This document shows positions 1 to 11,490 of a DNA stretch of 11,540 nucleotides, one piece after another. The stretch is taken from positions 1 through 11,540 of the forward strand of contig JAFAFD010000043.1 in the NCBI GenBank assembly GCA_023423675.1. The letters run 5' to 3'. The translations under genes and the position numbers were made by a program. The stretch's first letter is position 1. Every line of letters starts with the position of its first letter. The stretch comes from Pseudomonadota bacterium (GTDB taxonomy: Bacteria; Pseudomonadota; Gammaproteobacteria; Xanthomonadales; Xanthomonadaceae). The notes beneath the pieces were generated by a model, which searched no databases, was not told the origin of the DNA, and saw only the letters and a program-made list of their open reading frames with translations.

Positions 1-1
1 A

Positions 2-1003
2 TTACCAGTAGTCCACGTTGAGTACGGCTTCGCCCTTGATCACGCCGGGTACCAGCGGCTCGTCGGTGCGGATGTAGCGCGCGGTGAAGCCGATGTCATG
101 CGTTCCGCCCGCGCCGGGTTCGAAATCCTGGATCCGCCCGAACTGTACTTCAGTGCCCGCCTGCAGCAGCTGTACCTGCACGCCCCGCGCGTCTGAATCT
201 GCGGTAGGAGTCAGCAGGCTTCCCGAGTTGGTCGCATCGCCGGCATCGGTGAGTGTCATCGTCGCGCGCGGCGCATCCGTGCCGCAGTCCATGCGTACCG
301 CAAGCGGCTTTTCGTTGGCCGTAGCGCCCGGTGCCGCGAGCTCAGCCATCTGCACGTCCTTCAGCGACATTGAAACATCCTGCAACGGGCACGTCACGGC
401 AGGGAACTGGGGCGCAAGATAGTAGGGCGATGTGACATCAAGCTCGGGATGGCCCGGTGATCGCAGCGAGATGTGGCCAGTACGTACAAGGGACGTGCGC
501 ATTCGCCCGCCGCGCGAGAAGACGAGTGCCCTGTGGCTGATGGTGCTTTGCACACCATACCCCGGGCTGGTTTCATACGGCAGCTCCAGATCCTCACCCA
601 GACGGAGAGGCTTGCGGTCGTAGACGTTCGTGTAGACATCAAAAGCAAGCAACGCCGAATCAACGCCGGTGGCATAGGATGCATAGGTCCGGCCGTCGTA
701 CTGGATATCGCCCACATAATTCAACCCAGGGACCTCAAGCCGCACGAACACCGAAACGAAGCCACCAGGCAGTGCGCATTTTTCATACGAGACCCGACCT
801 GCCTGCTCTTCCATGAATACATTTGGGCCGGATGGCCAGGATGTGTAGACGGTATCGAGCACTATATCCGGCTTGGCCGTGTACTGATTGCAGGCCATCG
901 CGGTACCCGCAGCAAGCAGTAGTGCCAGCGCCGTGGACAGCATGGCGGGAATTGACTTGCGCGGCGTTGAGCCGGCGGATGCAGTGTAAACAAGAACAGA
1001 CAT
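2..1003 (-). CDS. FimH-like two-domain fimbrial tip adhesin
   Basis: Predicted secreted subunit placed at the fimbrial tip, where its first domain would bind a host or surface ligand. The 333-residue product has a signal peptide (hydrophobic stretch about 21-34, cleavage after AMA at 37). The mature protein starts with Cys38, and Cys76 would pair with it, much like the N-terminal disulfide of the FimH lectin domain. A linker near residues 195-203 leads to a pilin domain with Cys205 and Cys240, which ends in the aromatic pair Tyr-Trp after a beta strand, as expected for donor-strand exchange. An in-frame ATG lies 54 bases upstream at 1057, but the ATG at 1003 has a Shine-Dalgarno sequence and a normal signal peptide, so it is preferred. 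The gene is last in the usher-pilin-adhesin arm. The lectin part looks less GC-rich than its neighbours. The ligand cannot be told from sequence. The adhesin role is inferred from architecture. Confidence 0.8.
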   Translation of the reverse strand: MSVLVYTASAGSTPRKSIPAMLSTALALLLAAGTAMACNQYTAKPDIVLDTVYTSWPSGPNVFMEEQAGRVSYEKCALPGGFVSVFVRLEVPGLNYVGDIQYDGRTYASYATGVDSALLAFDVYTNVYDRKPLRLGEDLELPYETSPGYGVQSTISHRALVFSRGGRMRTSLVRTGHISLRSPGHPELDVTSPYYLAPQFPAVTCPLQDVSMSLKDVQMAELAAPGATANEKPLAVRMDCGTDAPRATMTLTDAGDATNSGSLLTPTADSDARGVQVQLLQAGTEVQFGRIQDFEPGAGGTHDIGFTARYIRTDEPLVPGVIKGEAVLNVDYW

Positions 1004-1010
1004 GCAACGA

Positions 1011-1015
1011 TCTCC
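1011..1015 (-). promoter_or_regulatory. Ribosome binding site that sets the adhesin start
   Basis: The minus strand reads GGAGA seven bases before the ATG at 1001-1003. The upstream in-frame ATG at 1055-1057 lies only three bases after the preceding pilin stop and would put 18 polar residues in front of the signal peptide. The downstream start is therefore favoured. Confidence 0.6.
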
Positions 1016-1060
1016 GTTATGGGCAGTGGCCGCTGAACGCTGTGCGCGCGCGGCCATTGC

Positions 1061-1570
1061 TTACTCGTAGTCAGCAGTGACCACGATCTCGGTGGACACA
1101 TCACCTGCGCTCGGCGTTGCGCCGGTGGGCAGGAAGTACGCCGCACGCAGGTCGTAGCGCGCCGTGGCGCCGGTGACCGGCACGTCGATGCCGGTGTCGC
1201 CGTCCTTCAGGTAGGTGCTGCCGGTGGTGCCGGACAGCAGCGAGATCGACACGCCGCCAGCCGCATCGGCGGTGGCGGTGTTTTTCCAGCGGGTGGCATC
1301 GCCATCGGCGGCGGTGCCGGCAAAGGACAGCACCGCCTTGTTCACGCCCACGCAGCCGGTGAATTCCAGTGCGCCGGCCTTGATCTGGCTGTCCGCGCCC
1401 GGGGTGAGGTCATTGGCCTTGATCGAATCCAGCGACACGGTGGCATTGGCCAGAGAGCAGGTGCCCGGCAGCACCTTGCCACTGATGGTGAGGGTGGCGC
1501 TGTCGGCCAGGGCCAGCGGCGCGGCGGCCAGCAGGGTGGTGCACAGGGTGATGCGGTTGAACAGGTTCAT
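1061..1570 (-). CDS. Fimbrial pilin subunit of the usher arm
   Basis: Type 1-like structural pilin of 169 residues, exported to the periplasm and assembled through the usher. The signal peptide ends at ALA (residue 22). The mature protein has the usual pilin layout: an N-terminal extension rich in alternating hydrophobic residues (SATLTISGKV), one disulfide pair (Cys38 and Cys73), and a C-terminal strand ending VTADYE with the penultimate Tyr typical of these subunits. The start at 1570 is clear because a full AAGGAGG precedes it by six bases. It follows the usher stop by 38 bases and precedes the adhesin by 57, so the three are probably one transcript. The very strong ribosome site suggests it is made in larger amounts than its neighbours, perhaps as a main shaft subunit, but which of the two pilins in this locus is the major one is not decided by sequence. 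Confidence 0.88.
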   Translation of the reverse strand: MNLFNRITLCTTLLAAAPLALADSATLTISGKVLPGTCSLANATVSLDSIKANDLTPGADSQIKAGALEFTGCVGVNKAVLSFAGTAADGDATRWKNTATADAAGGVSISLLSGTTGSTYLKDGDTGIDVPVTGATARYDLRAAYFLPTGATPSAGDVSTEIVVTADYE

Positions 1571-1576
1571 GGAAAA

Positions 1577-1583
1577 CCTCCTT
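1577..1583 (-). promoter_or_regulatory. Consensus Shine-Dalgarno of the pilin gene
   Basis: The minus strand reads AAGGAGG, a full match to the anti-Shine-Dalgarno sequence, six bases before the pilin ATG. It is the strongest ribosome site I found in the window. It rules out the longer in-frame ORF that reaches upstream into the usher gene. Confidence 0.8.
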
Positions 1584-1608
1584 GGATGGCAAAATTGAAC
1601 TCGGAACA

Positions 1609-4161
1609 TCAGAGCGCGGTGGGCGCGGTTGAATCCAGCGCGGCCTGCAGCCCGGGGCTCAGGGCCGGCAAGGGCGTGCACACGGCCTGGCTCCACGACA
1701 GGCCGTAGGCATCGGGCGCGTCGGGGGTGCTGTAGTCCAGGCGGCAGCGGTGCGGGCCGTCCGGGTCGACAATCAACTGGCCCTGCTCGGGCGCGCCACG
1801 CAGCTGGATCACCCCGCCCTGCCCGACGGCGCCATAGCTGCGGCCTGCTTCATCTTCGATGCGTGCGGCAAAGGGCAGGGGCTGGCCCAGGGCATCGGTG
1901 GCATCGATGAACAGCGTGCGTTCGCGGGTGGCATTGAAGGCCACGCGCACGATGCTGCCGGCGGTGGGCGCCACCCGCTGCGAGGTCTGCAGCAGTTCCA
2001 CGTCCATCGACAGACCGGACGGATCCAGTTCGATCTGGTTCCAGCGGTAGGGGCTGACATGCGGCAGCAGTGCGTAGCCGTTGCGACCGATGCGCACCCG
2101 GTCGCCATAGCCGATGCGCGCGCCCTGCGCGCCATCGGCCTGTACCAGGGCAAAGCCATCGCCCACCGGTGCACCGACGTTGATGCCGCCGCGATGCAGT
2201 ACCACGCTGCCGGCAGCGCTGGCATTGACGGCGCTGTAATCACCCGCGCGGCTGTAGCCGGCGGTGACCGTGCCATGGCCGCCGCGGTAGGACGCGTAGG
2301 CGCTGGTGCTGCCCGCAGCGTCACTGGCCTCACTGGCGGACACGCTGTAACTGAACTGCTGATCCGCGCCGGCGCTGCCACTGAGACCCAACTGGGCCTG
2401 CTGGCCGCGGGCGGAGTGCGCCAGCTGCGAACTCAGGCGCGGCGCACGCGGTGCGACGCCCAGCGGAATGCTGAAGGTGGCGGCATAGCGGGTGTCCTGG
2501 CGACCCTCGCCCACGCGCAGGCGCATGGCCGACAGACCCAGATTGGCGCGACCGATGCTGGTCTGGAAGCGCAGCTGCAGATCGTTCTGCTGTTGCGCAC
2601 TGTCCCAGTAGCGCACATGCCCGCCACTGAGCGAGAGCGTGCTGCGCTCGCCCACGCGCTGCGAGAAGTTGACCTGGAAGCGCTGCCGCGCGCGGCCGGC
2701 AAACCCCCAGTCGTCGTTGTAGACCTGGGCGAAATCATTCAGGCCCAAGTAGCCACGGGTGCTGTAACGCAGCGCGGCCAGGCCGAAGTTGGTGCCCGTT
2801 TCTGCGATGTAGCGCTGGTAGTTCAGCCGGAAGCTGTTGCCGGCCATCTGCGTGTCGTTGCCCAGGCGCGCACGTGCATGGGTGATGTCGGCACCGAAGG
2901 CGCCGATGGGCGTGTTGATGGCGCCACCGACGAGCGCGGACTGGAAGCCCTCGGCGATCTGCAGGCCGCCCAGCGCGGTGAAGTGGTTGCTGATGCCGCG
3001 CGCATAGGTGGCTTCGGCAAAGCGCAGGGCCTGGCGCGTGCCGCGTGCGTCGCGCAGTTCACCGGCGGTGGCACTGAAGCGGCTGGCACCGGGGCGCAGC
3101 GCCTGCGGCACTGCCGAGAAGCTGACGTTGAACTGCTGCTGGCGGCCATCTGCTTCGGTGACGGTGACGTCCAGGTCGCCACCGAAGTTGGTCGGGTACA
3201 GGTCCTCGATCGAGAACGGACCCGGCGCCACGCTCACCTCATGGATGACGTGGCCGTTCTGGCGGATGGTGACCACCGCATTGGTCTCGGCAATGCCCTG
3301 CACGACCGGCGCGAAGCCACGCAGCGAATCGGGCAGCATGCGCTCATCGCTGGCCACGCGTGCACCGGTGAACGACAGCGACTCGAACAGTTCGCCACCG
3401 GTATTGCCCTGGCCCAGCAGCAGCTGCGCATTCCATGCCGGCAGATCGCGCTGCAGGGTACTGCTGATGACATCGTGGCGAGAGCCATGGGTGCCCTGGC
3501 TGAAGGACGCGCGGTGGCGCAGCCGCCAGGCGCCCAGGTTCACCCCGGTGTTCAGGCCGAGATAGGTGTTCTGCTGGCCCTGGCTGCGGCTGTGGTTGAG
3601 GCTGTAATCGAAGAACGCGGCCGTGACGCCGTGGTCGCGCTGCGCCGGTGCCACATAGCCGCGGGCGTTGCGCGCCTGTGCCGCCTGCGGCACGTTCAAC
3701 AGCAGCTGCAGGTTGCCGGCGTCGAATTCGACGGTGGCACCTTCGACCAGATCCGCAAGCGCGACACAGCTTTCATCGTCGGGGCCCAGCGCGTCCAGAT
3801 AGGTCGCCTTCAACGGCAGGCCGCGCACCAGGCCGGCCGGCAGGCACGGGGTTGCCCCCAGCGGCGCCGGCGCCGGCACGAAGGTGATATCGCGCTTGTC
3901 CAGGAACTGGCCGTTGACGATGACATCCAACGGATACACGCCCGGCTCCATCGGGTTGCCATGCGCATAGCGCTGCATGTCGATGGCCTTGCCACCGATC
4001 AGGAAGCCTTCGCTGAACTCCAGAGACGCCACGTCATTGGCAGCCGCCTGGCTGGCGATGGTCATCGCCATGGCCAGCGCGATGGCCAGACCCAGCGGGC
4101 GACTGGTGGGGCACTGCGATATGCGGAGATGAATGCGGCGTTGAACCATGGCGGCGGTCAT
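1609..4161 (-). CDS. Outer-membrane fimbrial usher (FimD/PapC family)
   Basis: Outer-membrane pore that takes chaperone-subunit complexes and drives ordered fibre assembly and secretion. From the ATG at 4161 the product has 850 residues, normal for the family. A signal peptide ends near QAAA (about residue 41). The mature N-terminal domain opens with LEFSEGFLIGG and contains GVYPLDVIVNG, followed by a Cys pair. The long central part has the beta-barrel and plug pattern (DLPAWNAQLLLGQG, FSFT-like LSFTGARVASDERMLPDS, and IEDLYPTNFGGDLDVTVTEA). The C-terminal domains contain Cys806 and Cys828. The reading frame is open up to 4296, but the added 45 residues do not resemble a signal peptide. ATGs at 4161 and 4149 are both possible, and neither has a convincing ribosome site. 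It is the first gene of the minus arm and shares the control region with the divergent pilin-chaperone arm. No chaperone gene lies on its own arm. Confidence 0.92.
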   Translation of the reverse strand: MTAAMVQRRIHLRISQCPTSRPLGLAIALAMAMTIASQAAANDVASLEFSEGFLIGGKAIDMQRYAHGNPMEPGVYPLDVIVNGQFLDKRDITFVPAPAPLGATPCLPAGLVRGLPLKATYLDALGPDDESCVALADLVEGATVEFDAGNLQLLLNVPQAAQARNARGYVAPAQRDHGVTAAFFDYSLNHSRSQGQQNTYLGLNTGVNLGAWRLRHRASFSQGTHGSRHDVISSTLQRDLPAWNAQLLLGQGNTGGELFESLSFTGARVASDERMLPDSLRGFAPVVQGIAETNAVVTIRQNGHVIHEVSVAPGPFSIEDLYPTNFGGDLDVTVTEADGRQQQFNVSFSAVPQALRPGASRFSATAGELRDARGTRQALRFAEATYARGISNHFTALGGLQIAEGFQSALVGGAINTPIGAFGADITHARARLGNDTQMAGNSFRLNYQRYIAETGTNFGLAALRYSTRGYLGLNDFAQVYNDDWGFAGRARQRFQVNFSQRVGERSTLSLSGGHVRYWDSAQQQNDLQLRFQTSIGRANLGLSAMRLRVGEGRQDTRYAATFSIPLGVAPRAPRLSSQLAHSARGQQAQLGLSGSAGADQQFSYSVSASEASDAAGSTSAYASYRGGHGTVTAGYSRAGDYSAVNASAAGSVVLHRGGINVGAPVGDGFALVQADGAQGARIGYGDRVRIGRNGYALLPHVSPYRWNQIELDPSGLSMDVELLQTSQRVAPTAGSIVRVAFNATRERTLFIDATDALGQPLPFAARIEDEAGRSYGAVGQGGVIQLRGAPEQGQLIVDPDGPHRCRLDYSTPDAPDAYGLSWSQAVCTPLPALSPGLQAALDSTAPTAL

Positions 4162-4233
4162 TCGATGCGGCCAAAACCGACATCGCTCGTGTTCGAGGAG
4201 GCCGCATCGTAGGCAGCGCCTTGGCGCGTTCCC

Positions 4234-4251
4234 ATGCAATTTGTTGCAAAA
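4234..4251 (-). promoter_or_regulatory. Operator-like site, usher side
   Basis: Read on the minus strand the site is TTTTGCAACAAATTGCAT. It contains TGCAA-N4-TTGCA, a dyad typical of a dimeric regulator site. It matches 16 of 18 bases of the site at 4454-4471 on the other strand. It ends about 72 bases upstream of the preferred usher start. The binding protein is unknown. The spacing supports the short usher start, since the long form would place this site inside the coding sequence. Confidence 0.5.
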
Positions 4252-4453
4252 CGACAGCGCCCCCCGGAACCGCGCGGCATGCGCCAATGTGCGCATTTCA
4301 CGGTAATTCAGCCTTGTATAAGCGCCGTCAGGCCGTCAATCGAATCGTCTGCAAACCTCCTGGCAGCGGAGGTGCGGTGACGCAATAAGCCCGAGATGTC
4401 GCTTCCTGACTGCCTCCTTTACCGCAAGCACGAATGCACTGGGTGCGCAAGCG

Positions 4454-4471
4454 TTTTGCAACTAGTTGCAT
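4454..4471 (+). promoter_or_regulatory. Operator-like site, pilin side
   Basis: The site reads TTTTGCAACTAGTTGCAT and its core TGCAACTAGTTGCA (4457-4470) is a perfect 14-bp palindrome. It lies 86 bases upstream of the pilin ATG at 4558 and is the inverted partner of 4234-4251. The two together suggest one regulator, perhaps of the MarR, TetR or XRE type, controlling both fimbrial arms. That family guess is inference. Confidence 0.5.
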
Positions 4472-4557
4472 GTCCACGTACCGGCCGGGCGGGAACACTG
4501 TGCGCCGTGGCTGGCCCACCCCGTGTGGCCCTTCTGTTTCCCAACCAAGGACATCCC

Positions 4558-5073
4558 ATGTCAAAACAATTGAACCTGATCACCGCCGGTGCGCTTGCGC
4601 TGGCCCTGTCGCCCACTGCGTTCGCGGAGAAGCTGGAAATCACCGGCGAACTGATGACCAGCACCTGCTCGGTGGATGCCACCGGCGGCACCATCACCGT
4701 GCCGATGGGCAAGGTCGATGTGGCCTGGGTGAATGAAGCCGAGCGTGCCGGCATGAAGAACTTCAGCATTCTGCTGGACTGCACCGGCTCCGGCGCGGCG
4801 CAGAACGTGGGCGTGCGCTTTGGTGGCACCCCCGATGGCAGCACCGGCAACCTGGCGCTGACGGCCGCATCGACCGCCAGCAATGTGGGCGTGGCCCTGT
4901 ATGACGCTGCAGGCAACCACCAGAAGCTGGGCGAAGACCCGTCGCAGTGGGTCACCATCCCGGCCGCCGGCAAGGGCCAGCTGGACTACAGCGCCTGGTA
5001 TTCCTCGCCTGCAAAGAACGCCACCGCCGGTACCGCCAACGCCTCCGGCGATTTCGTGGTGCTTTACAAGTAA
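4558..5073 (+). CDS. Fimbrial pilin subunit of the chaperone arm
   Basis: Second pilin of the locus, 171 residues. A signal peptide ends at AFA (residue 23). The mature chain starts EKLEITGELMTSTC, has the single Cys pair Cys37 and Cys75 of type 1-like pilins, and ends FVVLYK with a penultimate Tyr that would take part in chaperone and subunit strand exchange. The ATG at 4558 is preceded by AAGGA at a six-base distance. An earlier in-frame start at 4396 would add 54 residues that do not look like a signal peptide and would overlap the operator-like site, so it is rejected. The gene is first in the plus arm, followed by a strong hairpin and then the chaperone. The sequence differs clearly from the minus-arm pilin, so the two are probably distinct structural parts (for example shaft versus anchor or adaptor). 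The division of labour is not known. Confidence 0.87.
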   Translation: MSKQLNLITAGALALALSPTAFAEKLEITGELMTSTCSVDATGGTITVPMGKVDVAWVNEAERAGMKNFSILLDCTGSGAAQNVGVRFGGTPDGSTGNLALTAASTASNVGVALYDAAGNHQKLGEDPSQWVTIPAAGKGQLDYSAWYSSPAKNATAGTANASGDFVVLYK

Positions 5074-5080
5074 GCCCCCG

Positions 5081-5103
5081 CGCGCCGCCGTCGCGGCGGC
5101 GCG
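5081..5103 (+). terminator. Pilin-chaperone intercistronic hairpin
   Basis: A perfect 10-bp GC-only stem (CGCGCCGCCG, loop TCG, CGGCGGCGCG) lies eight bases after the pilin stop. It is followed by TTCATTAG, not by a run of T, so it is more likely a partial terminator or an mRNA 3'-end stabiliser than a full stop. Such an element would let pilin mRNA accumulate above chaperone mRNA. Confidence 0.6.
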
Positions 5104-5125
5104 TTCATTAGCCGAGGATGATCGA

Positions 5126-5857
5126 ATGAAGATCCGTGCAATGACGTGGACGACCGCGCTGCTGGCAGGCGCACTGGCGCTGCCGGCATCGGCAGCGGTG
5201 ACGCTGCAGGGCACGCGTATCGTGCACGACGCCGCGCAGGGCCGGGATGTCACCGTGAAGGCCACCAACGGCGGCGAGCAGGCCGCCATGGTGCAGGTCT
5301 GGATCGATGATGGCGACAGCCATGCCCGCCCGGAGAACGTGCGTACGCCGTTCCGGCTGACGCCTGCCGAGCCGCGCCTGCTGCAGGCGCATCAGGGCCA
5401 GGCTTATCGGGTGACCTATGCGCCGCGGCCGTCGGAGCAGCCGCTGCCGACCGACCGCGAATCGGTGTTCTATTTCAACCTGCTGGATATTCCGCCCAAG
5501 CCCAGCGACGCCGCCGGCAAGAATCTGCTGCAGTTTGCCGTGCGCACGCGGGTGAAGCTGTTCCATCGGCCTGCGGGATTGCCCGGCAGCGCCCGCGAGG
5601 CAGCGGGCCAGCTGCAGTGGCGTGCTGAGGGCAATGCGCTGCAGGTAAGCAACCCCAGCGCCTACCACGTGACGCTGAGCACGCTGACGCTGCCGGATGG
5701 GCGCACGCTGGAGGTGGACATGATCGCGCCGGGCGGACAGGCCGTGCTGCCGTTGCCGGACGGTGCGGCCGTGCCGGCGACGGTCACGTTCCAGTGGCTG
5801 GACGATTACGGCACCCCGCGCGATGCGGAAGCCAAGGTGGCCGCCTCATCCCTGTAG
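5126..5857 (+). CDS. Periplasmic fimbrial chaperone (PapD/FimC family)
   Basis: Periplasmic chaperone that folds and caps pilin subunits by donating its G1 strand, then hands them to the usher. The 243-residue product has a signal peptide ending at ASA (residue 23). Arg31 corresponds to Arg8 of the mature chain, and Lys144 in RVKLFHRP is the likely second subunit-carboxylate anchor, the pair known in PapD as Arg8 and Lys112. The family signature is present as RESVFYFNLLDIPPKP (112-127), and the following F1-G1 loop is short, as in FGS chaperones. The ATG at 5126 has GAGG eight bases upstream. It is the only chaperone in the window and must serve subunits of both arms. Its TAG stop is part of the GTAG palindrome at 5854-5878. 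Confidence 0.92.
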   Translation: MKIRAMTWTTALLAGALALPASAAVTLQGTRIVHDAAQGRDVTVKATNGGEQAAMVQVWIDDGDSHARPENVRTPFRLTPAEPRLLQAHQGQAYRVTYAPRPSEQPLPTDRESVFYFNLLDIPPKPSDAAGKNLLQFAVRTRVKLFHRPAGLPGSAREAAGQLQWRAEGNALQVSNPSAYHVTLSTLTLPDGRTLEVDMIAPGGQAVLPLPDGAAVPATVTFQWLDDYGTPRDAEAKVAASSL

Positions 5858-5878: not shown

Positions 5879-5894
5879 ACGCGCAAAGCGCGAA

Positions 5895-5972
5895 GTAGAG
5901 CCGCGCCATGCGTGGATGAGCCGTCCTGGAAACGGGATCAGAGCCCTTTGCTGCGCAAAGGGATCCGGCCCC
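5895..5972 (+). repeat. Composite GTAG repeat module, copy 1
   Basis: The module starts GTAGAGCC, has a hairpin CCGCGC-CAT-GCGTGG (one G-U pair), a spacer, the palindrome CCCTTTGC-TGC-GCAAAGGG at 5944-5962, and ends GGATCCGGCCCC. The same order of parts recurs at 6050-6127 and, in inverted orientation, at 8754-8813. Confidence 0.65.
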
Positions 5973-5984
5973 GGCGCGAACGGC

Positions 5985-6007
5985 CGCCGGGCATGGCCCG
6001 GCGCTAC
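5985..6007 (-). repeat. GTAG palindrome, minus orientation, copy 1
   Basis: On the minus strand this reads GTAGCGCCGGGC-CAT-GCCCGGCG, an 8-bp perfect stem with a three-base loop, preceded by GTAG. It faces the plus-strand GTAG element at 5895, so each duplicated unit carries two such elements in opposite orientation. Confidence 0.7.
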
Positions 6008-6049
6008 CGATTCGTCGTACGCCCTACGCCGAGGCGTACAAAGCGCGAA

Positions 6050-6127
6050 GTAGAGCCACGCCATGCGTGGATGAGCCGTCCTGGAGACGGGATCAGAGCC
6101 CTTTGCTGCGCAAAGGGATCCGACCCC
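6050..6127 (+). repeat. Composite GTAG repeat module, copy 2
   Basis: This is the second copy of the module at 5895-5972. Its first hairpin is perfect (CCACGC-CAT-GCGTGG), the second palindrome is at 6099-6117, and it ends GGATCCGACCCC, the form shared with the third module at 8754-8813. Confidence 0.65.
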
Positions 6128-6139
6128 GGCGCGAACGGC

Positions 6140-6162
6140 CGCCGGGCATGGCCCGGCGCTAC
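6140..6162 (-). repeat. GTAG palindrome, minus orientation, copy 2
   Basis: This element is identical to that at 5985-6007: GTAG, then an 8-bp GC stem with CAT loop on the minus strand. It lies 24 bases past the recG stop, a position where it could stabilise the recG mRNA end. Confidence 0.7.
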
Positions 6163-6185
6163 CGATTCGTGGTGCGCCCGGCGCC

Positions 6186-8297
6186 CTACGCCGAGGCGTA
6201 GCGTACGGCGGTGCCGATCCAGCGGTTGACCACGCGGTCGGCCAGCGCCGGTTGCTGGGCCAGCAGGCGCTCGGCCAGGTCATGCACGCCGGGCAGCAGG
6301 CCGGCGTCGCGGGCCAGATCGGCAATGCGGAAACCGGCCAGGCCCGTCTGCCGGGTGCCCAGCAGTTCGCCGGGGCCGCGCAGCTCCAGATCCTTTTCGG
6401 CGATGACGAAGCCATCGTTGGTTTCGCGCATGGTCTGCAGGCGCTCGCGCGCCATCTGCGAAAGCGGCGCCTGGTACAGCAGCACGCAGCGCGATACCGC
6501 CGAACCACGCCCCACCCGACCGCGCAGCTGGTGCAGCTGGGCCAGGCCGAGACGCTCGGCGTTCTCGATCACCATCAGCGAGGCATTGGGCACGTCCACG
6601 CCCACTTCGATCACGGTGGTCGCCACCAGCAGATCGATCTCGCCAGCCTTGAACGCAACCATCGTGGCCAGCTTTTCAGCGGCCTTCAGGCGGCCATGCA
6701 CCAGGCCCACGCGCACACCGGGCAGCAGCGCCTGCAGCGATTCGTAGGTGGCCTGGGCAGGCGTGGCATCCAGCTCTTCGCTTTCCTCGATGAGCGTGCA
6801 CACCCAGTACACCTGCCGCCCTTCCTGGCAGGCCAGCGCGATGCGTTCGATCAGCTCGGGACGGCGGTCGTTGTTCAGTGCCACCGTCTGCACGGGTGTG
6901 CGGCCGGGCGGCAGCTCGTCGATGGCCGATACATCCAGATCCGCGTATTCGGACATCGCCAGCGTGCGCGGAATGGGCGTGGCGGTCATCACCAGCTGGT
7001 GCGGCACGCTGTGTGCGCCTGCCCCCTTGTCACGCAGGGCCAGCCGCTGGTGCTCGCCGAAGCGGTGCTGCTTATCGACGATGGCCAGGGCCAGGTCCTG
7101 GAACACCACCGCTTCCTGCATCAGCGCATGGGTGCCGACCACGACCTGCGCTTCGCCATTGGCGACCTGCTCGATCACCTTGGCGCGCGCCTTGCCGGTG
7201 ACCTTGCCGGCCAGCCAGCAGACGCGCACGCCCAGCGGTTCCAGCCAGCCGCGCAGATTGTTGAGGTGCTGTTCGGCCAGCAGCTCGGTGGGTGCGGCCA
7301 GGGCAACCTGCTTGCCCTGCTCCACCGCCAGCATGGCGGCCAGCGCGGCCACCACGGTCTTGCCGGAACCGACGTCACCCTGCACCAGCCGCAGCATCGG
7401 GCTGGGGCGTGCGAGGTCTTCGCGGATCTGCTTGAACACGCGTGCCTGCGCGCCGGTCAGCGCGAACGGCAGCTGCTTCAGCAGGGCCTTGGCCAGCTTG
7501 CCCGGGCCCGCCAGCGGCGGCGCGTGGTGCGCCTGCAGGGCAATGCGCTGACGGCGCAGGCTGAGGTGGTGGGCCAGCAGTTCCTCCATCGCCAGGCGTC
7601 GCTGCGCCGGGTGGGTGCCGGCGGCCAGTGCGGCCAGATCGGCATCCGGTGGCGGCTGGTGCACGGTCAGCAGCGCGCTGCGCAGCGACGGCAGGCCGAG
7701 GCCATCGAGCCAGCCCGTGGGCAGCAGTTCCAGCGTACTTTCCTCGGGCAGGCGATCCAGCGCCTGGGCGATGAGCTTGCGCATGGTCATCGGGCCGACG
7801 CCTTCCACGGTGGGGTACACCGGGTCGAGGCGGTCGCCGAGTTCGGGGTCGTCGTTGCGGCCCAGCACCTGGTAGCTGGGGTGGACGATTTCCAGGCCGA
7901 GGTGGCCAGGCTTGGGCGTGCCGAAGCAGCGCAGCCGGTTACCCACCGCGAACTGGCCGACCTGCTGCTGGCGGAAATGGAAGAAGCGCAGCACCAGGGT
8001 GCCCCGCCCTTCGTCTTCCACCGCCACCTTCAGCATGGGCCGGTAGCGCATGCCGCGCTCGACCGCGGTGACCCGCACTTCCACCTGCGCGGGCACGCCC
8101 GGGCGCAGGTCTTCGATACGGGTCAGCCGGGTGCGGTCTTCATAGCGCAGCGGCAGGTGCAGCCACAGATCCTGCAGGGTGGCCAGGCCACGCGCCTGCA
8201 GTTTGGCGGCCACGGCCGGGCCCACGCCGGCCAGCATCGCCAGGGATGCTTCGCCGGACGGTGACAGTGCCGGGGTGACCGCCGCCTTGCGTGCCAC
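6186..8297 (-). CDS. recG: ATP-dependent DNA helicase RecG
   Basis: Branch-migrating helicase that remodels stalled forks, R-loops and Holliday junctions in the cytoplasm. The 703-residue product has the family's full length. A wedge/OB domain (about 50-145) binds the junction. The superfamily 2 motor has Walker A GDVGSGKT (307-314, Lys313), motif III MTATPIPRTLA, motif V ATTVIEVGVDVPNA and motif VI QLRGRVGRG (590-598). The RecG-specific hairpin region LRGPGELLGTRQTG is at 639-652. The striking defect is motif II: family proteins read DEQHRFGV, while here residues 408-415 read DKQHRFGE. Glu409 of DEQH, which activates water for ATP hydrolysis, is Lys. By family knowledge this should abolish or strongly lower ATPase activity, though the frame is otherwise intact. 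The start is a GTG seven bases after the ridA stop, with no clear ribosome site, suggesting translational coupling. The stop TAG sits in the duplicated repeat end. Confidence 0.93.
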   Translation of the reverse strand: MARKAAVTPALSPSGEASLAMLAGVGPAVAAKLQARGLATLQDLWLHLPLRYEDRTRLTRIEDLRPGVPAQVEVRVTAVERGMRYRPMLKVAVEDEGRGTLVLRFFHFRQQQVGQFAVGNRLRCFGTPKPGHLGLEIVHPSYQVLGRNDDPELGDRLDPVYPTVEGVGPMTMRKLIAQALDRLPEESTLELLPTGWLDGLGLPSLRSALLTVHQPPPDADLAALAAGTHPAQRRLAMEELLAHHLSLRRQRIALQAHHAPPLAGPGKLAKALLKQLPFALTGAQARVFKQIREDLARPSPMLRLVQGDVGSGKTVVAALAAMLAVEQGKQVALAAPTELLAEQHLNNLRGWLEPLGVRVCWLAGKVTGKARAKVIEQVANGEAQVVVGTHALMQEAVVFQDLALAIVDKQHRFGEHQRLALRDKGAGAHSVPHQLVMTATPIPRTLAMSEYADLDVSAIDELPPGRTPVQTVALNNDRRPELIERIALACQEGRQVYWVCTLIEESEELDATPAQATYESLQALLPGVRVGLVHGRLKAAEKLATMVAFKAGEIDLLVATTVIEVGVDVPNASLMVIENAERLGLAQLHQLRGRVGRGSAVSRCVLLYQAPLSQMARERLQTMRETNDGFVIAEKDLELRGPGELLGTRQTGLAGFRIADLARDAGLLPGVHDLAERLLAQQPALADRVVNRWIGTAVRYASA

Positions 8298-8304
8298 GGG
8301 TGGG

Positions 8305-8691
<387 letters not shown>

Positions 8692-8725
8692 GGTCGCTCC
8701 GGTGCGTTGGGAAAACAGAGCGGTG

Positions 8726-8731
8726 ATTGTA
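8726..8731 (-). promoter_or_regulatory. Possible -10 box of ridA-recG
   Basis: The minus strand reads TACAAT, five of six bases of the sigma70 -10 consensus, 34 bases upstream of the ridA ATG. No good -35 hexamer stands at 16-18 bases upstream. It would start transcription just downstream of the repeat block. Confidence 0.35.
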
Positions 8732-8753
8732 CCGGGTGGGCGCGATGTCGGCT

Positions 8754-8813
8754 GGGGTCGGATCCGTTTCCCGGCGGGAAACAGAACATCATCCACGCAT
8801 GGCGTGGATCTAC
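8754..8813 (-). repeat. Composite GTAG repeat module, variant copy
   Basis: Read on the minus strand: GTAG, a perfect 8-bp hairpin ATCCACGC-CAT-GCGTGGAT, a short spacer, a second palindrome GTTTCCC-GCC-GGGAAAC (8766-8782), then GGATCCGACCCC. The ends match the modules at 5895 and 6050, but the middle palindrome has a different sequence. It lies upstream of ridA. Confidence 0.65.
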
Positions 8814-8836
8814 TGGACTCGCCTGATGCGCCGTCT

Positions 8837-8899
8837 GTAGAGCCGATCCCATGCTCGGCTGCTTCAGGCAAGAGCAGCCGAGCATGGGCTTGGCTCTAC
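8837..8899. repeat. Inverted pair of GTAG palindromes
   Basis: Two 27-base arms (8837-8863 and 8873-8899) are reverse complements with two mismatches and a nine-base loop. Both arms begin at their outer end with GTAGAGCC. The long hairpin lies between spoT and ridA. It lacks a T run in the spoT direction, so it is more a stabilising or attenuating element than a standard intrinsic terminator. Confidence 0.8.
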
Positions 8900-8908
8900 A
8901 AAAACCAT

Positions 8909-8929
8909 CCACGCATGGCGTGGCTCTAC
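8909..8929 (-). repeat. GTAG palindrome on the spoT stop codon
   Basis: The minus strand reads GTAGAGCCACGC-CAT-GCGTGG: a 6-bp hairpin preceded by GTAG. The spoT stop codon is the TAG of this GTAG (8926-8928), the same arrangement as at the chaperone stop. Confidence 0.8.
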
Positions 8930-11088
8930 TGCCGGCGCACCGACTGCACCACCGACAGGCGGCGCAGGCGACGCATGACTTCGGCCAGGTGGTTGCGGTC
9001 GCGCACCTGGATGTTGAACGCCAGCACGGCGGCGTTGAAGTCGCGGTCCAGGTAATCCACGCGCTCGATGTTGGAGTGGCTCTGCGCGATGGCCGCAGCC
9101 AGCTGCGCCAGCACGCCGGTGCCGTTCTCCACTTCCACCACCAGCGAAGTGTTGTAATCGCCGGACACGGTGGTGTCCCAACCGATCGGCACCCAGCGCT
9201 CGGGCGACTTGCGCAGTTCGGCCAGGTTCGGGCAATCCACCCGGTGCACCACGATGCCCTTGCCGGCGGTGTGGTAACCCATGATCTCGTCGCCGGGAAT
9301 CGGCTGGCAGCAGCCGGCGAAGGTGACCACGCCACGCTCGCTGCCGTTGATGAGGATCTTTTCCTGCGAATACTGGCGGGAATTCGCACCGCCACGCAGC
9401 TCGGCATAGGCCATCAACGCCTGCGCGGCCTGGGTCGGCATCCAGTTGCCCAGCGCCACTTCGGCCAGCAGGGCCTCCAGGCGCGGGAAACGGTGTTCGG
9501 CCAGGAACGCATCGAGGCGGCCCTTGGGCAGGCGTTCCAGCGACGAATCCATCGCTTCCAGCGCGCGGTCCAGCATGCGGTGGCCCAGCTGCACGGCGTC
9601 TTCGTGCTCCAGCTGCTTGAGCTGGTGCCGGATGGCGGTGCGCGCCTTGCTGGTGACCACGAATTCCAGCCACTGCGGCTTGGGCGTGGCCGAACGCGCG
9701 GTGATGATTTCCACCGACTGCCCGGACACCAGCTTGGTGCGCAGCGGCACCAGCTTCTTGTCCACGCGCGAAGCCACGGCCATGTTGCCCACGTCGGTGT
9801 GCACCGCGTAGGCGAAATCAAGCGCGGTGGAGTTGCGCGGCAGGGCCAGGATCTTGCCCTTCGGCGTGAACAGGTAGACCTCGTCCGGGAACAGGTCGAC
9901 CTTCACGTTGTCGAGGAATTCCAGCGAGGAACCGGCGGCGCGCTGCGAATCGATCAGTTCGACGATCCAGGCGTGGGCGCGGCTCTGCGCGCTGTTGGGC
10001 GAATCGCCACCGAACTTGTAGGTCCAGTGCGCGGCCACGCCGCGTTCGGCGATCAGGTCCATTTCCTCGGTGCGGATCTGCACTTCGATGGGCGAACCGT
10101 AGGGCCCGAACAGCACGGTGTGCAGCGACTGGTAACCGTTGGCCTTGGGAATGGCGATGAAATCGCGGAAGCGGCCATCCAGCGGCTTGAAGGTGGCATG
10201 CACCGAACCCAGCGCGTGGTAGCAGCTGGGCACGCTGCGCACGACCAGGCGGAAGCCGAACACGTCCATCACCTGGTCGAAGGATTTGTTCTCGTCGCGC
10301 ATCTTGTTGTAGATGCTCCACGGGGTCTTGATGCGGCTGACCAGGCGGTGCTCGATGCCCTCCTTCGCCAGCCGCTGCGACAGCTGTACTTCCACCTGCG
10401 CCATCGCCTCGCGGCGTACCACCGGCTGGCTGCGGATGTGTTTTTCGATGATGGCATGGCGCCACGGGTACAGCGCCTTGAAGCCAAGGTTCTGCAGTTC
10501 GCTCTTGACCAGGCTCATGCCCAGACGCTGGGCGATGGGCGCGTAGATCTCCAGCGTCTCGCGGGCGATGCGGCTACGCGCTTCGCGGCTCTGCGCGCCC
10601 AGCGTGCGCATGTTGTGCAGGCGGTCGGCCAGCTTGATCATGATCACGCGCAGGTCGCGCGACATCGCCAGCAGCATCTTGCGGAAGCTCTCAGCGGCCG
10701 CTTCCTGGCGGTCGCGGAACTTCAGCTTGTCCAGCTTGGTCACGCCGTCGACCAGCTCGGCCACGGCTTCACCGAACTCGGAGGCCAGCTCTTCGCGGGT
10801 CAGCGGCGTGTCTTCGATGGTGTCGTGCAGGATCGCGGCGATCAGCGCTTCCACGTCCAGGCCGAGCTCGGCCAGCACCTGGGCCACGGCCACCGGATGG
10901 GTGATGTAGGGCTCGCCCGACTTGCGCGTCTGCCCAGCATGCGCCGACGCACCGACTTCCCAGGCACGGCGCAGCAGCGGCAGCTGTTCCGGCGGCAGGT
11001 AATGGGCGGCGCGTTCGAGCTGGAGGACGTAATCAGGTACGGCCGCGGCGGTGGGCGCGGCTACCTTGGCAGTGGGGCCTGGGTTCAT
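8926..11088 (-). CDS. spoT: Bifunctional (p)ppGpp synthetase/hydrolase SpoT
   Basis: Long RelA/SpoT homologue that makes and degrades the alarmone (p)ppGpp and sets the stringent response. The 720-residue product is full length. The HD hydrolase domain is intact: Arg55, His64, HDTIED at 88-93, and Asp155 and Asn159 in ADRLHN. The synthetase domain has RIKTPWSIYNK (252-262), VFGFRLV, IPKANGYQSLHT (313-324) and EVQIRTEEMD. The specificity motif reads RFRD (306-309), an RxKD-type basic motif with Lys replaced by Arg, so this is the SpoT/Rel class and not the RelA EFDD class. A TGS domain (about 397-462), a zinc-finger-like domain with Cys593, Cys594 and Cys619, and a C-terminal ACT domain (about 647-720) follow. 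The ATG at 11088 has only a weak ribosome site. It lies downstream of rpoZ, as in many proteobacteria, with a terminator-like hairpin between them. Confidence 0.95.
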   Translation of the reverse strand: MNPGPTAKVAAPTAAAVPDYVLQLERAAHYLPPEQLPLLRRAWEVGASAHAGQTRKSGEPYITHPVAVAQVLAELGLDVEALIAAILHDTIEDTPLTREELASEFGEAVAELVDGVTKLDKLKFRDRQEAAAESFRKMLLAMSRDLRVIMIKLADRLHNMRTLGAQSREARSRIARETLEIYAPIAQRLGMSLVKSELQNLGFKALYPWRHAIIEKHIRSQPVVRREAMAQVEVQLSQRLAKEGIEHRLVSRIKTPWSIYNKMRDENKSFDQVMDVFGFRLVVRSVPSCYHALGSVHATFKPLDGRFRDFIAIPKANGYQSLHTVLFGPYGSPIEVQIRTEEMDLIAERGVAAHWTYKFGGDSPNSAQSRAHAWIVELIDSQRAAGSSLEFLDNVKVDLFPDEVYLFTPKGKILALPRNSTALDFAYAVHTDVGNMAVASRVDKKLVPLRTKLVSGQSVEIITARSATPKPQWLEFVVTSKARTAIRHQLKQLEHEDAVQLGHRMLDRALEAMDSSLERLPKGRLDAFLAEHRFPRLEALLAEVALGNWMPTQAAQALMAYAELRGGANSRQYSQEKILINGSERGVVTFAGCCQPIPGDEIMGYHTAGKGIVVHRVDCPNLAELRKSPERWVPIGWDTTVSGDYNTSLVVEVENGTGVLAQLAAAIAQSHSNIERVDYLDRDFNAAVLAFNIQVRDRNHLAEVMRRLRRLSVVQSVRRQ

Positions 11089-11136
11089 GCCAGAAGCCTA
11101 TGCCAGCGCGTCGATTACGGCAAATCCTGAATGCGA

Positions 11137-11161
11137 AACAGCCCGCACGGGGCGGGCTGTT
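11137..11161 (-). terminator. rpoZ-spoT intergenic terminator
   Basis: A perfect 10-bp stem (AACAGCCCGC, five-base loop, GCGGGCTGTT) lies 32 bases after the rpoZ stop and about 48 bases before the spoT start. On the minus strand it is followed by only a short TTTCGCATT, so it should end some but not all rpoZ transcripts and attenuate spoT. Confidence 0.65.
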
Positions 11162-11193
11162 CAGCGGTCAAGCAACGGCATTGATCGATGCGA

Positions 11194-11490
11194 TCAATCG
11201 TCGTTCTTGGACATGTCTTCGTCGGCGACCACTTCAGCGGCAGCCCACTCCAGCGCTTCACGCTCGGCACGCTCGCGCTCGGCCTTCTCGACTTCGTCGA
11301 TCAGCGCGTTGTCGATCTTGCGGGCGGCGATTTCGCGCAGTGCCAGCACGGTCGGCTTGTCTTCGGTGTCGTTGTCCAGGGTGGCCTGCACGCCGTTGGC
11401 GAGCTGACGGGCACGCTTGGAGGCCATCATGACCAGCTCGAAACGGTTGTTAACGACTTCCAGGCAATCTTCTACGGTGATGCGGGCCAT
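11194..11490 (-). CDS. rpoZ: DNA-directed RNA polymerase subunit omega
   Basis: Small subunit that binds the beta-prime subunit and helps assemble RNA polymerase; in proteobacteria it also forms part of a ppGpp binding site. The 98-residue product begins [20 protein letters not shown], the conserved N-terminal segment, continues with the helix [13 protein letters not shown], and has the conserved ALREIA motif near the middle. The C-terminal third is a charged helix ending in a short acidic tail (DEDMSKNDD), the variable part of the family. GGGAG lies five bases upstream of the ATG. It stands directly upstream of spoT, linking the ppGpp sensor subunit with the ppGpp enzyme. The gene that normally precedes it (often gmk) is outside the window. 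Confidence 0.95.

Follow-up and report, generated by a model that had tools for sequence, protein, structure and literature searches.

In superfamily 2 motors the glutamate of motif II is the general base that activates water for ATP hydrolysis. RecG is one of these motors, and E. coli recG nulls are viable. The effect of changes around motif II has been described for Thermotoga maritima RecG, in the accessible part of PMC6213257: ATPase and fork reversal are abolished in the D497A E498A mutant and abrogated in R501A F502A, just past motif II, while Q506 and R507, disordered in the crystal, have a far smaller effect. DNA binding of the mutants tested in that work showed no difference. A comparable behavior is reported in the accessible part of PMC5063381 for Neisseria meningitidis RecG carrying K294A, in motif I: branched DNA is bound equally, and unwinding is not significant. 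The same source lists 49 polymorphisms of meningococcal recG, 37 of which change an amino acid and 7 of which fall at conserved active-site residues, the helicase motifs varying very little; natural variants at conserved RecG sites have thus already been reported. The positions named there (17, 342, 344, 438) show no tie to motif II.

Here we describe a recG gene in which the motif II block features two substitutions, E409K and V415E. The gene lies in a contig assigned to the Xanthomonadaceae; the whole stretch analysed, 11,540 nucleotides long, is indicated as the window.

The recG gene and its surroundings

Coordinates are reported in Table 1. Residues 16-703 of the product match the RecG equivalog of NCBIfam (NF008163) with a score of 1082.9 bits, the cut-off being 796, and residues 18-703 match the PDB RecG chain 9wm0 (E 7e-239). 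The domains RecG_wedge (PF17191), DEAD (PF00270), Helicase_C (PF00271) and RecG_dom3_C (PF19833) each score above their own cut-off, and the TRG loop, GPGELLGTRQTG, contains the invariant glutamine, when compared with the consensus given, with some of its characters missing, in the accessible part of PMC6213257. By these matches the protein is a RecG by descent, which does not imply an active RecG motor. It is an allele or variant of a known protein, not a new system.

Table 1. Position of recG, of its motifs and of the adjacent genes in the window
Feature	Position	Strand	Residues	Remarks
recG, ATP-dependent DNA helicase RecG	6186..8297	-	703 aa	GTG start, full length, no inner stops or frameshifts
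Motif I (Walker A), GDVGSGKT	7356..7379	-	307-314	intact
Motif II and conserved C-terminal tail, DKQHRFGEH	7050..7076	-	408-416	relatives: DEQHRFGV, then mostly H
Codon 409, AAG (Lys)	7071..7073	-	409	relatives: GAG or GAA (Glu)
Codon 415, GAG (Glu)	7053..7055	-	415	relatives: a Val codon
Motif III, TATPIPRT	6963..6986	-	438-445	intact
Motif VI, QLRGRVGRG	6504..6530	-	590-598	intact
TRG loop, GPGELLGTRQTG	6342..6377	-	641-652	intact
ridA-type gene	8305..8691	-		no private residues; ATG at 8691 chosen within longer ORF 8305-8871
spoT	8926..11088	-		no private residues

Genes spoT, ridA-type and recG form a row on the minus strand; rpoZ lies upstream of them, and downstream there is a chaperone-usher fimbrial cluster. 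The end of the ridA-type gene precedes the recG start by 7 bases, and the two are therefore probably co-transcribed. The fimbrial cluster (1-5857) comprises two fimbrial-type ORFs and the usher on the minus strand, a fimbrial ORF and the chaperone on the plus strand. Among the fetched loci, more than 1000 bases of it are matched only by L001 (84.6% over 4.8 kb) and, in part, by L102; of the first 50 loci, 37 have a length of at least 13 kb, and the genus loci L081-L110 are short. The locus of the nearest genome (L114) spans the place of the cluster without matching it.

Repeated sequences are found on both sides of recG. Just downstream lies a 147-base tandem direct repeat (5884-6030 and 6039-6185, 95% identical), and the 19 bases overlapping the end of recG (6182-6200) recur exactly at 6020-6038. 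Between ridA and spoT, region 8785-8931 holds a pair of 31-base repeats (90%) and a 28-base inverted repeat, 93% complementary, with a 9-base loop; we take these to resemble the REP-type elements of S. maltophilia.

Two substitutions in the motif II block

Codons 408-409 (7071-7076, minus strand) are GAT AAG, coding for Asp408-Lys409. Motif II consequently reads Asp408-Lys409-Gln410-His411 (DKQH, 7065-7076): the DEQH with its catalytic glutamate, found in all relatives examined, is absent, as had been noticed in a previous, sequence-only reading of this DNA. The single G-to-A change proposed there explains codon 409, but the block contains two changes: V415E, six residues on, had been overlooked, and turns the conserved tail HRFGV into HRFGE. 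The claim that all other motor motifs are intact holds accordingly for motifs I, Ia, Ic, III, IV, V, VI and for the TRG loop, where no other residue absent from the relatives compared is present, and fails for the tail of motif II. The three explanations offered at the time (loss of function, dominant-negative junction binder, sequence error) make up the right short list, although they had been drawn from one change instead of two.

The number of changes matters for their interpretation: two within one nine-residue block make plain independent decay less likely, and point to a single origin, whether a clustered event or a local artefact, or, with less likelihood, to compensation. The double change is known from one contig only.

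Conservation of residues 409 and 415

Glu409 and Val415 are both present in all of the 80 genome loci compared; these rank best among 179 confirmed relatives, and their identity to the window protein ranges from 50 to 99%. The same is true for all 120 proteins listed from a first database search (the best 120 of 7997 matches) and for all 157 listed when a second search is added (its best 120 of 236 matches). In the second search only residues 394-434 served as query, and any cluster representative with one of the two changes should therefore have come out near the top. Each database protein represents a 90% cluster and hides the single-strain variants within it: P0003 alone stands for 1459 members. 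Two of the retrieved entries are peculiar in themselves. P0001, a RecG of 806 aa, features a duplication of about 100 wedge residues (from about residue 80, recurring about 103 further on), possibly an assembly artefact; P0126, a RecG-like protein listed as belonging to the fungus Rhizopus arrhizus and 88% identical to the query over the 41 searched residues, is probably a bacterial contamination of that assembly.

At the DNA level, DEQHRFGV is coded in 91 out of 91 genomes of Stenotrophomonas, the genus to which the nearest named relative belongs: in 89 of them a valine precedes the aspartate, and the sequences of the remaining two were read individually. Lys409, which the earlier reading had suggested to look for in close relatives, is found in none of them: the E409K/V415E pair, or either change alone, does not occur in the 80 loci, in the 157 listed proteins or in the 91 genus genomes. 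DEQHRFGV is also common to the PDB RecG chains 9wm0 and, from Thermotoga, 1gm5. The adjacent residue 416 varies, with H416R in L101 and changes in three of the 80 loci, whereas residue 415 is constant. When the window RecG is compared with 50 relatives whose identity to it is 70% or higher, E409K and V415E are the only residues not seen in any of them; for SpoT, RidA and RpoZ, coded by the same contig, unseen residues are zero against 41, 44 and 41 relatives, respectively. The same test, for the fimbrial usher, had one comparison sequence, and was left out of the conclusions.

DKQH was also considered as a recurring natural form of RecG, and rejected. Of the 398 genomes searched in the order, one (G264) contains an exact DKQHRFG, within a 29-residue stop-to-stop frame, which is not RecG; the RecG of that genome (L113) has DEQH. 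A looser motif pattern matches in 388 of the 398 genomes, and four further genomes from this search each have a Glu-codon match; among the matches listed, the second matches with a non-Glu codon that were examined are two, both from G264. In the IMG/VR viral contigs the double change, sought with a pattern at motif level, has no match. Plasmid records give only 7 short, distant matches, of 74-77% identity. No report of a DKQH RecG, or of a Glu-to-Lys change in motif II, was found in the literature searched, which lay mostly outside subscription journals.

Divergence from the nearest genomes

The nearest genome found, G077, is 96.9% identical at the DNA level over 5.4 kb; S. cyclobalanopsidis TPQG1-4 follows, at 95.8%. 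Both G077 and L001, among the nearest, have a normal motif II. Between the window and G077, recG codons show 64 synonymous differences and 4 that change the amino acid (G177A, S324A, E409K, V415E). Since Ser324 is private to G077, three changes are private to the window: G177A, E409K and V415E. In 20 comparison sequences (plus L001, the same gene as L082), private amino-acid changes are scattered along the gene, the only one within the block being the H416R mentioned above; these 20 derive from the 30 loci L081-L110, ten having been dropped for gaps or incomplete ends.

Private bases were evaluated over 6186-11490 (recG, ridA, spoT, rpoZ). The window has 18, of which 17 are coding: 14 synonymous, plus those of the three changes above. 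Outside the motif II block, 14 of 15 private coding bases are synonymous, while about 73% of random errors would change an amino acid (binomial p 1.5e-7). The background is therefore real divergence with low noise, and the stretch, as far as its sequence tells, looks accurate and under purifying selection. For the two changes in the block there are thus two readings: they are real, or they are a miscall confined to this place.

The probability that at least two of three random private changes fall inside codons 408-416 is 0.0005, a post hoc figure; that any two of three fall within six codons of each other is about 5%, which would make such a pair uncommon under simple decay by independent changes. 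The changes are 19 bases apart, a spacing that indicates a common cause, whether mutation or miscall, and, if they are real, suggests one clustered mutational event and not slow decay. Two possible sources were looked for. An inverted repeat, improved by eye by the changes, raised the case of quasi-palindrome or hairpin template switching, which was rejected for want of support from folding: E409K brings no gain (and a loss of stability in the 41-base range), V415E alone accounts for the small gain of two of the three ranges, and in the third the double change is less stable than the sequence of relatives. In the three ranges, 996 of 4752, 3298 of 7380 and 3456 of 13860 double substitutions are at least as stabilizing. 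As for a donor tract, the 27-base window version, searched with up to 3 mismatches in four close genomes, matched recG alone in all four, and no donor was seen.

Predicted effect of the double change

With Lys409 the water-activating glutamate would be gone, and a positive charge would be placed next to Mg-ATP; Glu415 would insert a charge in the conserved tail, at a point with the essential Arg-Phe pair on one side and the mobile loop on the other. The protein is expected to fold and, through its wedge domain, still to bind forks and Holliday junctions, but to lack ATP hydrolysis, translocation and fork reversal. A junction-binding, motionless RecG is, by analogy with the mutants described, the natural prediction, and the gene would represent a loss-of-function allele, which may also be dominant-negative to some degree. 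Loss of activity is argued here from alanine mutants, and we infer that Glu-to-Lys would act like Glu-to-Ala; alternatively, a lysine this close to the phosphates of the nucleotide could retain ATP or interfere with Mg. At E<=1e-200, each of the 91 genus genomes contains one recG copy, so a spare one is presumably not to be expected in this strain.

Alternative explanations

We tentatively favor a real, recent and linked E409K plus V415E in a Stenotrophomonas recG, producing an ATPase-dead, junction-binding loss-of-function allele, to which we assign a little less than an even chance. Under this explanation the changes would be real and due to a single event, ATPase would be lost and binding retained, and no second recG would be present. 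Its main competitor, rated nearly as likely, is a local artefact: some 20 bases would be miscalled, because of a bad read at low coverage or a mistake in assembly or polishing, and the RecG of the organism would be normal. Two changes so close to each other, affecting positions at which the relatives examined do not vary, with nothing similar elsewhere in recG, ridA, spoT and rpoZ, are what such an error would produce; the normal motif of G077 and L001 and the outcome of the viral and plasmid searches point the same way, and the contig may be a draft or metagenome one, with uneven coverage. Yet the rest of the tested stretch is nearly free of errors, as indicated by its synonymous private bases, all four genes are open and full length, and the hairpin that might have caused a misreading is unsupported by folding.

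The remaining explanations are given little weight. Lys409 and Glu415 might form a charge-swapped pair, in a compensated or re-tuned enzyme whose structure is preserved, perhaps together with part of the activity, or which works as an ATP-locked junction clamp. Their charges are opposite, they are near in sequence and occur together, neither being seen alone in the relatives examined, and they represent two of only three private amino-acid changes. This explanation is nevertheless improbable: the glutamate is the general base of these motors, the pair is present in none of the 157 listed proteins, and DKQHRFG occurs in the order only outside RecG. A double alanine mutant including this glutamate, moreover, is dead in Thermotoga, as stated in the accessible part of PMC6213257. 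A variant of this idea, where the loss of the catalytic glutamate is balanced by the new one six residues on, and a junction binder with altered or relocated ATP chemistry is tolerated or used by the strain, is in our opinion very improbable. The smallest probability of all goes to ordinary pseudogene decay, in a recG lost earlier and now drifting: substitutions at two otherwise constant sites would fit, but the frame is fully open, the 64 synonymous differences from G077 face only 4 amino-acid ones, and the remaining private change, G177A, is mild. The weights given to the real allele, the artefact, compensation and decay are a matter of judgement and were not calculated.

If the favored allele is real, it is a natural catalytic-site variant in a branch-migration motor that shows no variation of motif II across the 91 genus genomes examined, and offers a simple test of whether a strain survives with a junction-bound, motionless RecG. 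If it is an error, a clean contig can still hold a local double miscall exactly where it is most striking.

Comparison with known systems

Compared with RecG as defined by NF008163 and by the 9wm0 and 1gm5 chains, the window protein is alike in length, domain order, remaining motor motifs and TRG loop; it differs in motif II and its tail, which read DKQHRFGEH in the window and DEQHRFGV(H) in RecG. The two Thermotoga maritima mutants, D497A E498A and R501A F502A, affect the same block as the window changes: counting along the residues published in the accessible part of PMC6213257, Val415 corresponds to V504, between Phe502 and Gln506. They are, however, designed alanine changes, while those of the window are Glu to Lys and Val to Glu, known from the contig sequence alone. 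Neisseria K294A, as described in the accessible part of PMC5063381, is an ATPase-dead RecG able to bind Holliday junctions, the same state predicted for the window RecG; it is a designed mutant of motif I, whereas the window changes are in motif II.
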